Shown one piece after another: positions 12,700 to 44,746 of a stretch of 46,422 nt of DNA. The number at the start of each line of letters is the position of its first letter. Within the stretch, counting starts at the first letter, position 1. A program made the translations under genes and the position numbers. The stretch is from a virus. The notes beneath the pieces are model-generated. The model was not told the origin of the DNA. It was given only the letters and a program-made list of their open reading frames with translations, and made no database searches. Location of the stretch: positions 1-46,422 of IMG/VR virus record IMGVR_UViG_3300035670_000369. The stretch is one strand, 5' to 3'.

Positions 12700-13275
12700 T
12701 TATTTATTTAAAATTAAAAATTTATTTATAAAATATCTCTGCCAATCTTCACGACTAAAATTTGTTTGTAGATGACAACTCTTACATAGTGAAATAAGGT
12801 TTTGGGGATCATTATTTTTTTTATTATAATCAATATGATGAACAGATAATTTATATCCAAGTTGTTCTTCAGTAAAATAACATTCCTGACAAGTAAAACT
12901 ATCTCTTTCTCTTATTTGTAATTTCAGAGGTGTTTTAAATTCCTTTCCATATCCACGATTTGAAAGACCCCCCATCCATAAATGGTGTTTGGAACCAGTC
13001 TTTCCAAACATTGGATTCTTAGAGCCTAATTTTCCTATAGATAATTTCTTTACTGTCTCTGGTTTATGTTTATAATGTACACCTGTTCTTGGATTTTTAT
13101 CACCAATTCTTTCAGAACTGTGTACTCTATTAGAACAACTCTTGGAACAAAACTTTCTTCCTACCCATATTCTTTTACTATCATAAACTGGTTCATTCTT
13201 AAAAAACGTCTTGCCACAACTTAAGCATTGTTTTGATGGAGTATTTTGTTTTCTTGGTACTAGACGTTTTTTCAT
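12700..13275 (-). CDS. HNH homing-type endonuclease (first of three)
   Basis: 191 aa. An N-terminal zinc ribbon (CLSCGKTF ... FCSKSCSNR), then a NUMOD3-type DNA-binding segment (PETVKKLSIGKLGSKNPMFG), then a C-terminal HNH core (CQEC ... LSVHHIDYNKKNNDPQNLI ... CKSCH) ending NFSREDWQRYFINKF. Such free-standing HNH genes nick or cut DNA and spread between phage genomes. It sits between a tail-structural gene and the glycine-rich fibre, overlapping neither; its stop is two bases from the fibre ATG. It is lower in GC than its neighbours by eye. Confidence 0.9.
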   Translation of the reverse strand: MKKRLVPRKQNTPSKQCLSCGKTFFKNEPVYDSKRIWVGRKFCSKSCSNRVHSSERIGDKNPRTGVHYKHKPETVKKLSIGKLGSKNPMFGKTGSKHHLWMGGLSNRGYGKEFKTPLKLQIRERDSFTCQECYFTEEQLGYKLSVHHIDYNKKNNDPQNLISLCKSCHLQTNFSREDWQRYFINKFLILNK

Positions 13276-17274: not shown

Positions 17275-17949
17275 TTATTTCATTTCAGCCACCAAACTTT
17301 GAAAGTAAGGCGACAATTCCGCTTCTTCCGCTCGTTTTCGAGGGTGATGGGCGTGGCATAATGTGATGCCGTTATTAATATCATACCTCAACTCTGGGTG
17401 ACTTGTAAAACCCAATATATGATGTACTTCTAAACGACCAAAACAATCTGTATTATTAATTTTACACTGATAACAATCTCGTTTCAAAACTCTTTTTCGC
17501 CACTCACTATATGAATAGCTCCTTCTATCTTTTACATCGTCACTAAATCTTTTCAATAACGTTCTGTCTTTTATCCACACAGGGTTATTTTCCCCACACC
17601 TACCATACATACCGTTTTTAGACCCTAAATGTAATTGTCCAATTTTCTTCCTTGTTTCTTCCGAATATATTTTACCCTTATTTCCTAAACTAATTTTTAG
17701 TTTATGTTCTTCAGATAAATTTTTACCAGACATTCCGATAGGTTTGGAACGACCCGTTTTGAATTGATTTTTTGCAGTGTTGCTTATCTTGTTTATGGTT
17801 TTTTGAGAATGATGCCTACCTAAATTTATTTTATTCCCCTTTTTAAATACCCCATTAGGACTAAAACAAATATGCTTTCCTTTACTCCATGGAATATTTC
17901 CTTTTTTAAATTGTCCCGAATTTTTGAATTTCATCCCTTTTGTTGCCAT
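17275..17949 (-). CDS. HNH homing-type endonuclease (second of three)
   Basis: 224 aa. Several NUMOD3-like basic repeats (SEEHKLKISLGNKGKIYSEE, TRKKIGQLHLGSKNGMYG) precede an HNH core: WRKRVLKRDCYQCKI, RLEVHHILGFTSHPELRYD, NGITLCHAHHPRKRAEEAEL. The C-terminus is SPYFQSLVAEMK. It is wedged between two structural genes (12 and one base gaps), a typical position for an intron-free homing gene. It is a different subfamily from the other two, lacking N-terminal zinc ribbons. Confidence 0.9.
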   Translation of the reverse strand: MATKGMKFKNSGQFKKGNIPWSKGKHICFSPNGVFKKGNKINLGRHHSQKTINKISNTAKNQFKTGRSKPIGMSGKNLSEEHKLKISLGNKGKIYSEETRKKIGQLHLGSKNGMYGRCGENNPVWIKDRTLLKRFSDDVKDRRSYSYSEWRKRVLKRDCYQCKINNTDCFGRLEVHHILGFTSHPELRYDINNGITLCHAHHPRKRAEEAELSPYFQSLVAEMK

Positions 17950-33612: not shown

Positions 33613-33735
33613 TGTGAGATGGGGGAAGCGGTATCTCAGTTGGTAGAGAGCGTCTCTATACTTATAGGACGGTAAAAAGACGCAGTCGTTGGTTCAAGTC
33701 CAACCCGTCCTACTTCCCCACCTCCCACTCTCACA
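33613..33735 (+). ncRNA. tRNA-like RNA with abnormal anticodon arm and long outer helix
   Basis: Clear tRNA parts: D-arm TCTC-AGTTGGTA-GAGA (33634-33649), anticodon-type stem CGTCT/AGACG (33651-33655, 33678-33682), five-base variable loop, and T-arm GTTGG-TTCAAGT-CCAAC (33688-33704). But the anticodon loop has 22 bases instead of seven. The ends pair as GGGGAAG/CTTCCCC (33622-33628 with 33713-33719) plus CGG/CCG with a five-base bulge, and further out TGTGAGA/TCTCACA. AGGACGG inside the loop (33666-33672) pairs perfectly with CCGTCCT after the T-arm, an alternative acceptor. No normal anticodon or encoded CCA. Confidence 0.6.
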
Positions 33736-37689: not shown

Positions 37690-38945
37690 AAATCCTTATA
37701 TTCATCTGAAGCCATGGCTTCATCAACATTAACCTTATCAAACTCTCCAAAGGCTTTTTCAGTTTCCTCATCACCTTGAGCCACATCTTCATCAACTAAA
37801 TCATGCTCAACCTTATCAACATGATCAAATATATGCATTATTTCCCTGAATTCATCTTTTAATATCCACTTATCTCCCTGACTACCACCTTTAATTTCTC
37901 GGAAACACATACCCAGAGCGTTGATTTCCTCAAGCCACGGCTTAACTGAACCGGTCGGATAACCTAATTTAGTAGCCACGCCCTTGGTAGTCACACTAGC
38001 ATAATGGGCTAGTTCTTTTAATGCCATTCTTCTGCCTTTAGGAATAGAATCTAATGCTATTTTATAAAGTATCTTCTCATATTGTGGTGGCATCACACCA
38101 CCGCTCATAGCGATAAAGACTCTAGCTAGTAAGTGAAGCTGATTAGAAATACGCATTGGCATCTCTGGTGCTAGAACCAACCCCACATCTCCTTTCCAAG
38201 TCTTCTCCACTGGTGAACGAGCGGAAGCAGCAAAGTCGGAAACCGTTACTATCTTATCACTAATAGCTTCTGGTATATCATCTTTCATTTCCCCCACAAA
38301 TGGAATCATAGTATCAATATACTCCTTAAAATCTTTTTTTAATTCTTCACGATACTCCTTGATATGTCCAGCAATTTGAGCCGCTCGTTTGGTGGTCTTA
38401 CGCCTATCTTGCTCTGGTAAGGAGTAGGACATAGTTCTAAGACCCATACTTGAGTCTTGTCCGTCCATAGCGTGAATCTTTTCGGTGACACCAGCGATTA
38501 AAGTTATTTTACCTTGCCACATTAAATCTTCACCACGTCCGGTTGGTTTAGTTAGTAGTCCATCATATACCTCACGGAATTGTGCCATGATAGACTGACG
38601 ATCTTCTTTGGTCATTGAGAGAATAGTAGTGAAGTCTTTCATTACAATAATGGATGTTCGGGCAATACGGAGAAGGAGTGATGCCTCTTTACCTTTAACT
38701 GAAGCACCAGAGAGTAGGGTATTAGGAGTTAAGGTTGAGACTTGGTGGACGAAGGGGATACCCATGATGCAGTTAAGTACTTCTGACTTACCAGATGAAC
38801 TACCACCAACTAGCATGCACCAGATCGGGTCTCCGGGCATTCTATTTGAAAGAACCACTGCGGCCACCAAAGGAATAACACTATCATCTTCCAGATAGAA
38901 AATTGATTTGTATTTTTTTGTAAGTTCTTCAATGGTTTTAGACAT
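37683..38945 (-). CDS. P-loop replication ATPase (helicase/primase-like)
   Basis: 420 aa. GGSSSGKSE (47-55) is Walker A; IIVMKDFTTIL (99-109) is the Walker B region; later ISAVMSGLR-like order is replaced by DGQDSSMGLRTMSYSLPEQD (sensor). The C-terminal part holds a winged-helix-like ALKELAHYASVTTKGVATKL (about 315-335) and an acidic tail. The order suggests a phage or archaeal-type replicative ATPase loading on primed DNA. It overlaps the C5-methylase remnant by eight bases. The family is not certain. Confidence 0.65.
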   Translation of the reverse strand: MSKTIEELTKKYKSIFYLEDDSVIPLVAAVVLSNRMPGDPIWCMLVGGSSSGKSEVLNCIMGIPFVHQVSTLTPNTLLSGASVKGKEASLLLRIARTSIIVMKDFTTILSMTKEDRQSIMAQFREVYDGLLTKPTGRGEDLMWQGKITLIAGVTEKIHAMDGQDSSMGLRTMSYSLPEQDRRKTTKRAAQIAGHIKEYREELKKDFKEYIDTMIPFVGEMKDDIPEAISDKIVTVSDFAASARSPVEKTWKGDVGLVLAPEMPMRISNQLHLLARVFIAMSGGVMPPQYEKILYKIALDSIPKGRRMALKELAHYASVTTKGVATKLGYPTGSVKPWLEEINALGMCFREIKGGSQGDKWILKDEFREIMHIFDHVDKVEHDLVDEDVAQGDEETEKAFGEFDKVNVDEAMASDEYKDLC

Positions 38946-39297
38946 GATATTTCTTCATAAATGATAAGATATGCTTCACAACTTCTTTCAAAATACGAAC
39001 ATACTCCCAGAACAGACCTGACCTTGCACCATCTAAGCCTTGACGATTCTTCTTGGCGATTGATAAGTCTTGGCAAGGACTTCCTCCAATTAACAATGTT
39101 GTATCTCTCCACAAAGGAGTTGGGTGAAAATCTACCACTGAACCTATTTGTGTGGTCTTTGGATGATTTTTCTGGGTAATTTGAATAGCATACTTATCAA
39201 TCTCGGAAGCGTAATACTCCACATCGTAACCCAATTCTTTTAGGGCTTGCTGGGCGACTGATATACCGTCGAATAAACTTAGAACTTTTATTTTCAT
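38938..39297 (-). pseudogene. truncated C5-cytosine DNA methyltransferase
   Basis: 119 aa. It keeps motif I (LSLFDGISVAQQALKELGYD) and motif IV with the catalytic Cys (GGSPCQDLSIAKKNRQGLDG) and SGLFWEYVRILKE, but stops before motif VI (ENV), VIII, the target-recognition domain, IX and X, so it cannot be a complete enzyme (normally over 300 aa). Its ATG overlaps the primase stop and its end overlaps the ATPase start. Either a remnant or a domain kept for another role; no partner half is present. Confidence 0.75.
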
Positions 39298-43010: not shown

Positions 43011-43748
43011 TTATTTATAAAGCTCCTGCAATTTGGCTCGGGTGACTGGTCCGAGATTACCTTCTGCTGGAGTGATATTATATTTTCGCTGAAAAAACTT
43101 TTGCCACTCTTTTCGATTCAGACCAGTTTTTGTGTGACACGACAGACATAGAGTTATTAAATTTTCAGGAGAACAATTCTTTTTATTATAATCTATGTGG
43201 TGGATATTAAATTTCCTCTCACCTATACACCATTTTTTAAAACAATACTGACAAGTATTATTATCCCTACTACGAATTATATTTTTTAGATGATTTGTCC
43301 ATTCCATAGGATAAATTTCAAATGATTTCCCCCCTTGCCAATTACTACTTCTTTCTCCCCTAAGTGGATATTTTTTATTCCTTTCAGAATTCCAAGGACA
43401 TTTTTTACCAAGATGAGACAGGCTTATTTTCATTTTAGTTTCTTCCGATGGTTTAAATTTTGAGATAACTTTTGCTCTACAACTTCGTGAGCAGTATTTT
43501 CTTTTTCCTAAGTCACTAATAAAATATTGAAACTGCTTTTTACATAGAAGACATTGACTAATTATTATCTTAGTTGATTTTTTAGGATATTTCCGATAAC
43601 ATATAGAAGAACAAAATTTTGCTTTTTTATCTCTAAATTGTGGAACAACAAAATCTTTGTTGCACATTAAACATTTTTTAATTACATCTATTGTGGTTTT
43701 TTTAAATCTACCCATATTTATTCCATTTTTTGGTATTCCTTTTGGCAT
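43011..43748 (-). CDS. HNH endonuclease fused to end of a peptidoglycan-binding domain
   Basis: 245 aa. Two zinc ribbons (CLMCNKDF ... FCSSICYR; CLLCKKQF ... YCSRSCRA), a NUMOD3-like segment (SEETKMKISLSHLGKKCPWN), then an HNH core (CQYC ... FNIHHIDYNKKNCSPENLI ... CLSCHTKTGLN). The last residues, 224-245, NITPAEGNLGPVTRAKLQEL plus YK, are not HNH sequence: they match the end of the endolysin (NITPALGNLGPITKAKLYEL). The junction falls at the FFQRKY of the HNH end (compare WQRYFINKF in the first HNH). Expression would give an HNH with a peptidoglycan-binding remnant. Confidence 0.9.
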   Translation of the reverse strand: MPKGIPKNGINMGRFKKTTIDVIKKCLMCNKDFVVPQFRDKKAKFCSSICYRKYPKKSTKIIISQCLLCKKQFQYFISDLGKRKYCSRSCRAKVISKFKPSEETKMKISLSHLGKKCPWNSERNKKYPLRGERSSNWQGGKSFEIYPMEWTNHLKNIIRSRDNNTCQYCFKKWCIGERKFNIHHIDYNKKNCSPENLITLCLSCHTKTGLNRKEWQKFFQRKYNITPAEGNLGPVTRAKLQELYK

Positions 43749-43762
43749 AATTTATAATTAAA

Positions 43763-44746
43763 TTACGGAAACAATTCATACAGTTTAGCTTTTGTAATAG
43801 GACCTAAGTTTCCTAGTGCTGGAGTAATATTATTAGCAATTTGAAAAGCTATACACGCTTTTCTAGAGACACTCAACCATTTTCCTGTGCTTTCTACATT
43901 ACTTGGAAAATATCCAAGATATTTTAAACAATTCTGTGCCGAAATAATCGTGCCATCATACTTAGGTTTGTCTGGCGCCTCTTCATATTTCTTAAAGTTT
44001 AGAATGTAATTTGGTTTCCAATAAGTTCTCTTTAAGAAGAAAGACTCCGGTACTAAACGAACTGGGTATCCATCCTCACAAGCTGAGTCTTCAATCACTA
44101 AACACTTTCTACCTTCATCATCAAGAGTATAATCGACAGCCGTCACTCGATGTCCCATAGTCCATAAATTAGGTGGTTGAATTTCTTTAACTACCCTCCT
44201 GCCAAACCACTCACCTTTACCAAACATAACTGTCAGACCAACCCCCTTACCTGTATTCTCAATAGTTGAAGCCACAGTATCAATATCTAAATCCATAAAG
44301 ATTCTCTTAGCTCCGAAGATTTTAGACATATCTTCGGTGTATGATGGTAGTTTTATTTGCATCATTTTTAAATCATTCATTGATTGTGATGGAGAAAGTT
44401 CCTCTGGGATAGAGCCATAATTAGTAGCCTTGATTAGATCTTCGACTGTTGAGCCACTGATATTTGGATTGGCTCGTAACTGATAACCGGGGTTGGCGGA
44501 GAACACCATAAACTCCCCATACTTCTGTTTAGCAATGATTCCTCTTTCTTTTTCTAGTGAGGCCATAACACAACTTCCCGACTGCCCTTGTTTTCGGACC
44601 GGGTAGTTTTCATACTTATCTTTTTTCACCCAAACAACAGGAGCAATAGAAGCAACTAATTCACTCTGAACATAGTCACAATCCTTTTTCTCTTGCGATC
44701 TGGTATCTGGTAATGCTCCACTATTGAATTTTCTTCTCCAAAACAT
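43763..44746 (-). CDS. endolysin: papain-like cysteine peptidase with PG-binding domain
   Basis: 327 aa. YPVRKQGQSGSCVMASLEKE contains the catalytic Cys59; TMGHRVTAVDYTLDDEG has His199 and VIEDSAC the third residue (Asp220), the order of C1A/C39-type peptidases. Residues 265-327 are a peptidoglycan-binding domain (SAQNCLKYLGYFP ... ACIAFQIANNITPALGNLGP). No signal peptide is seen, so export should depend on the holin. It is transcribed from the promoter at 44753. Such peptidase plus 'LGPITKAKL' proteins are, by memory, frequent in CPR genomes and phages. Confidence 0.75.
   Translation of the reverse strand: MFWRRKFNSGALPDTRSQEKKDCDYVQSELVASIAPVVWVKKDKYENYPVRKQGQSGSCVMASLEKERGIIAKQKYGEFMVFSANPGYQLRANPNISGSTVEDLIKATNYGSIPEELSPSQSMNDLKMMQIKLPSYTEDMSKIFGAKRIFMDLDIDTVASTIENTGKGVGLTVMFGKGEWFGRRVVKEIQPPNLWTMGHRVTAVDYTLDDEGRKCLVIEDSACEDGYPVRLVPESFFLKRTYWKPNYILNFKKYEEAPDKPKYDGTIISAQNCLKYLGYFPSNVESTGKWLSVSRKACIAFQIANNITPALGNLGPITKAKLYELFP

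Follow-up and report, generated by a model that had tools for sequence, protein, structure and literature searches.

The HNH gene and the endolysin-like gene upstream

The window analyzed here is the whole virus record of 46,422 bases. On its minus strand, an endolysin-like gene is followed by a gene for an HNH protein. Both genes come from ORF calls, and the features of the locus are as follows.

43763-44746, minus strand: endolysin-like gene (the putative target), 327 aa, with a papain-like (C1) cysteine peptidase region and a C-terminal PG_binding_1 region
43763-43846, minus strand: endolysin gene, 3' end in its present form (residues 301-327 with the stop codon), homologous to 43011-43094
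43749-43762, minus strand: 14-bp spacer between the endolysin stop codon and the HNH start, from the sequence
43011-43748, minus strand: HNH ORF, 245 aa
43095-43748, minus strand: body of the predicted homing-type HNH endonuclease, residues 1-218, with cysteine motifs, a weak NUMOD3 match, and the HNH domain at residues 166-208
43011-43094, minus strand: C-terminal tail of the HNH protein, residues 219-245 and stop codon, matching the ends of two intact endolysins (L005 and L007)

The product of 43763-44746, which ends in FQIANNITPALGNLGPITKAKLYELFP and a stop codon, probably works as a lysin (endolysin). A Pfam profile search places PG_binding_1 at residues 267-322 with an E value of 0.0014, which is below the curated cut-off. 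A profile made from this protein and its two relatives, L005 and L007, matches papain/cathepsin chains, and L007 matches the Peptidase_C1 domain (E 2.4e-5). An AlphaFold model of the endolysin, made from a three-sequence alignment, has a pLDDT of 41 and was set aside.

The HNH protein ends in EWQKFFQRKYNITPAEGNLGPVTRAKLQELYK and a stop codon; the ORF runs into the tail without a stop codon of its own. Its catalytic domain is recognized in Pfam above the cut-off (HNH, E 7.6e-5), the match to NUMOD3 is weak (E 0.017), and the match to the PHROG 1271 HNH endonuclease has an E value of 7.9e-22. The protein is likely a homing-type endonuclease, for which site-specific cleavage of empty alleles and unilateral inheritance are predicted.

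The shared gene end

The HNH protein and the endolysin upstream have homologous C termini, each of 27 residues (F219-K245 in the HNH protein). In a gap-free alignment over 26 codons, 18/26 amino acids, 48/78 nucleotides, and 11/26 third positions are identical, which bears out the match described in the sequence-only reading and makes it slightly longer than the 22 residues given there. When the endolysin is searched against its own virus record, the HNH tail is the only second match (residues 300-326, 67% identity, E 4.8e-6). Per site, most of the nucleotide differences between the two copies are synonymous (pS 0.82, pN 0.25), and the pS/pN values at the two other loci with paired gene ends, described below, are 0.74/0.17 and 0.52/0.25. 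Such an excess of synonymous over nonsynonymous divergence would be expected for functional gene ends diverging in different viruses. In the window, the two copies most likely drew apart at a time when each still coded for the functional end of a gene, and their synonymous-rich divergence therefore counts against recent copying in place. Misassembly is an unlikely source of the paired ends, because their DNA identity is only 62-70% over the aligned codons.

Taken in isolation, the tail matches PG_binding_1 only, at an E value of 0.073 and over positions 37-57 of the 57-position profile, so that the similarity to a peptidoglycan-binding domain postulated in the sequence-only reading is present in profile searches but weak, as it also is at the C terminus of the endolysin. 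A Pfam profile search with the full-length HNH protein has no PG_binding_1 match at E<1. The tail corresponds to a third of a domain, not to a complete one. Because it spans only this last part, peptidoglycan binding by the HNH protein is unlikely, and the idea that the enzyme binds peptidoglycan by accident was abandoned.

Intact endolysins with about 44% amino acid identity to the one in the window are found in two viral contigs, L005 and L007, and each has a single PG-binding end. They represent an uninterrupted allele with one 3' end, albeit in distant relatives. Apart from the tail matching the endolysin end, no HNH relative is found in these two records, both of which are possibly fragments. 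The HNH tail matches the endolysin ends of L005 (73%, E 4.3e-8) and L007 (67%, E 9.9e-8), and the match of these two to the tail is about as good as their match to the end of the window endolysin. It is because of these matches to intact genes that the tail can be read as an endolysin end. A tblastn search with the endolysin gives no match in named phages, and no endolysin relatives are found in the genome contigs searched.

Relatives of the HNH protein point to the same junction. Most of the matches between the HNH protein and its relatives at 80 loci end at query residue 216-231, and most of the relatives terminate within about 25 residues of the W..YF motif. The native end of the family thus coincides with the position where the window tail begins (residue 219). 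No PG-binding-like tail is seen among the C-terminal ends read at these 80 loci, at several of which (e.g., L037, L041, L044, L071, L074, and L096) the frame read is evidently not that of the HNH gene; with that proviso, the proposal that the tail is missing from other HNH genes holds. Two HNH ORFs of one virus, L051 and L097 on the same contig, share an odd tail (...LH.WCSAL.L) that is not seen at the other HNH-relative loci whose ends were read. The window itself contains two more HNH ORFs in the structural-gene region, 12700-13275, which ends in WQRYFINKFLILNK, and 17275-17949, which ends in SPYFQSLVAEMK.

Base composition offers a hint as to which of the two ends is native. The third-position GC content of the present endolysin end is 0.115, versus 0.322 in the body of the gene (Fisher p 0.027, uncorrected for multiple tests) and 0.192 in the HNH body (p 0.43); in the HNH tail, it is 0.346, similar to the endolysin body (p 0.83). 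Because the present end resembles the HNH body and the tail resembles the endolysin body, this signal, weak as it is, points to a native tail and to a present end that arrived with the HNH gene. It is seen in the window only and is absent in the L049 and L089 cases.

The same anatomy at other genes

The tails of HNH proteins were compared with the ends of the genes upstream by Smith-Waterman alignment, using 2450 cross-locus pairs as a control. The window scores 86, and L049 and L089 score 77 each; the control pairs have a mean of 14.6, a 99th percentile of 27, and a maximum of 42. This scoring pass left out twelve loci and the third window HNH ORF (17275-17949), which lack the motif used. A broader pass over 71 HNH ORFs returns the same top three, so that 3/71 show an end duplication. 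Its control pairs have a 99th percentile of 52, with one random cross pair at 330, a score that arises because loci with homologous neighbors are among the pairs. Matches below the top three look like chance, paralogous neighbors (L057), or frame artifacts (L037) and were set aside. The tail screen shows no gene-end duplication beside the window HNH ORF at 12700-13275; the one at 17275-17949 is included in a single, separate pass of the screen. No further case comes from sixteen HNH loci of named phages and L008; most of the HNH genes of the named phages are more distant from the one studied here.

At all three loci, a full-length gene is followed by the endonuclease gene and then by a further copy of the first gene's 3' end; the tail is in the HNH frame, and the similarity is anchored at both C termini. 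In L049, the upstream gene encodes a family 2 glycosyltransferase, and the HNH tail MPVNGWSDKDLQKLKEEEKK pairs with its end WPVNGWKEEDLKKLKEYEKQ; the glycosyltransferase homologs in L034 and L023 carry this end motif once. In L089, the upstream ORF encodes an unknown protein of 114 residues whose end, IIKGLMDKKFIKLNTVKEFIDLMNFFIKIL, is identical to the tail IVKRLSNKKILNLKTVKDFIKAMDLLIKIL at 16/30 positions, with both the ORF and the HNH gene ending in IKIL and a stop codon. L049 and L089 belong to other viruses, and the three target genes are mutually unrelated; the common factor is therefore the position at the 3' end of the upstream gene. The view that a cell-wall motif was special as the homing site does not fit the L049 and L089 tails, which are C-terminal copies of unrelated genes.

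Several other arrangements were noticed in the course of the screen. In G007 (52455-53730, L126), a short ORF lies downstream of a glycosyltransferase gene, and its C terminus, WLVECFIPISGWDEKKIKELKKNEK, repeats the end of that gene; the duplicated end lies at 53461-53730, with no recognizable HNH between the copies. It may be the scar of a lost element, or gene ends may also be duplicated by other routes. A second type of small homing-endonuclease-like ORF is found just upstream of the glycosyltransferase in L049 (1102-1599) and G007 (52034-52471), and in L034 and L023 an HNH sits just before the glycosyltransferase, so that this gene looks like a hotspot. In L068 (2770-3954), the HNH ORF continues in frame into a segment weakly similar to the cupin domain of mannose-6-phosphate isomerase (E 0.0072), and no upstream gene end matches this extension. 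In L099 (1618-4158) of Synechococcus phage S-EIVl, an HNH match lies within an ORF annotated as the terminase large subunit, as an in-frame insertion that has no recognized splicing element.

A putative 3'-end-replacing homing element

We interpret the HNH unit of the window as a homing element that replaces the 3' end of its target gene, with a probability of roughly 0.7; its activity is predicted. The unit would have two parts, a divergent version of the terminal portion of the target gene and, after it, an HNH ORF lacking a stop codon. In a mixed infection, the HNH enzyme would cut an intact endolysin gene in its 3' part, and repair templated by the donor would transfer the donor's 3' end and HNH gene. 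The incoming end would keep the endolysin whole and at the same time alter the target, which would no longer be cut. The old 3' end of the recipient would be pushed downstream to become the last 27 codons and the stop codon of the HNH ORF, and it could act as a second homology arm in the next round. The tail would thus be the native endolysin end, displaced, joined in frame to the HNH gene, and providing it with its stop codon; 43763-43846 would be part of a replacement end carried in by the element. Cleavage, resistance of the recoded end, the direction of displacement, and current mobility are all predicted from sequence, and the insertion site and the direction of displacement are deduced from distant relatives.

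This interpretation is favored by the homologous ends that flank the HNH body, by the intact relatives with a single end, by the native end of the HNH family lying at the junction, and by the recurrence of the same anatomy at two unrelated genes. The excess of synonymous differences between the copies, the third-position GC content in the window, and the lack of an intron match in Rfam also speak for it. Against it count the low number of cases among the screened ORFs, the weakness of the composition signal, the duplicated end in G007, and the fact that no near-identical empty allele, free of the HNH gene, was found among the relatives.

The G007 arrangement is also what speaks for a local duplication of the endolysin 3' end by ordinary recombination, in which the HNH gene landed between the copies later or was already there and no homing was involved. 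This is unlikely, given that an in-frame HNH gene at the native gene end recurs at three unrelated genes and that the many synonymous differences suggest divergence of the copies in separate functional genes. PG-binding domains can come as repeats, and the sequence-only reading had placed the insertion in a second PG-binding unit, belonging either to a tandem endolysin or to a neighboring homologous gene. Insertion into PG-binding coding sequence of an endolysin, with the tail kept in frame, is upheld; the second unit is improbable and was rejected, since both intact relatives have one unit, the 14 bp between the endolysin and the HNH gene hold no 5' half of another, and the L049 and L089 cases would be left unexplained. 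Most likely, the HNH gene lies inside a single endolysin 3' end, and insertion into one gene with a replacement end is preferred because it needs fewer events.

There is only a very slight chance that the HNH gene gained its tail at the endolysin of another phage and arrived already fused, by recombination, next to an endolysin whose present end is native. As this history would allow, the distance of the tail to the window endolysin is much the same as its distance to L005 and L007, but the compositional outlier relative to the gene body is the endolysin end, not the tail, if only weakly so. Phage genes are known to hold intron-encoded HNH enzymes, and the tail might accordingly be a 3' exon that is attached to the endolysin when an intron or intein is spliced out. 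This explanation, the least probable of all, was discarded: the endolysin gene is whole and reaches a stop codon ahead of the HNH start, and Rfam shows no group I or II intron around the HNH ORF at the gathering or at a relaxed threshold.

The closest parallels to the proposed 3'-end-replacing element come from fungi. Yeast WHO elements at FBA1 place an endonuclease gene downstream of a full-length target whose 3' end they supply, leaving the displaced old 3' end beyond the endonuclease, and the recoded end is proposed to give resistance (PMC7282813, eLife 2020). The window element has the same order of full-length target, endonuclease gene, and probable displaced old end. However, WHO proteins are HO/intein-derived with zinc fingers, are transcribed independently of FBA1, in some cases in the opposite orientation, and build clusters, and their displaced fragment need not stay open, whereas the window enzyme is a viral HNH protein fused in frame to the displaced end. 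By analogy, the window element might work like a WHO element, but its enzyme does not belong to the WHO protein family. In fungal mitochondria, mORFs with inserted C-terminal ends are found in atp6, atp9, cox2, and nad3, with the endonuclease ORF between the inserted foreign gene end and the displaced native one (PMC3630166, which cites Allomyces atp6). The atp6 mORF ends share 63.5% nucleotide identity (PMC3630166), compared to 48/78 in the window; in contrast to the phage HNH enzyme, mORF enzymes are of the LAGLIDADG or GIY-YIG type.

Among phages, the T4 seg and mob genes are free-standing, promoter-poor endonuclease genes that adjoin or overlap the upstream gene, and the mob enzymes have HNH domains, according to a review of T4 mobile elements (PMC2988022); the window HNH gene is likewise a free-standing neighbor of an upstream gene. 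Searches by term in that review, in a study of phage nuclease genes, and in a study of Skunavirus HNH genes give no gene-end duplication or displaced tail at a homing gene. In the ShiLan-type arrangement, an HNH element lies, without features of an intron or intein, inside a phage methylase gene (PMC11855218); as described there, it interrupts the gene, is read out of frame, and brings no replacement end, whereas the window element would supply one. No phage precedent for a 3'-end-replacing homing element was found among the open-access papers that were searched, and one may exist elsewhere.

If this interpretation is correct, phages share a homing strategy whose documented cases have so far come from yeast and fungal mitochondria, one that arose with an unrelated nuclease family and allows an important gene to be parasitized without breakage, since a new end is supplied. 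Phage proteins could exchange their C termini in this way, here the PG-binding end of a lysin, and such elements, along with the genes that they targeted in the past, could be recognized by a simple sequence signature. More tentatively, phages might carry a whole unrecognized class of homing elements, HNH genes lacking a stop codon. Such genes would enter many kinds of genes at the 3' end, provide a new end in exchange, use the displaced one as tail, stop codon, and recombination arm, and so repeatedly rewrite the C termini of, e.g., lysins and glycosyltransferases.

Elsewhere in the window, Rfam matches a tRNA above threshold at 33625-33712, which is not reported by ARAGORN. A short ORF at 38938-39297 resembles, by eye, the N-terminal part of a cytosine DNA methyltransferase, including a GGSPCQDLS motif, and appears to be truncated.
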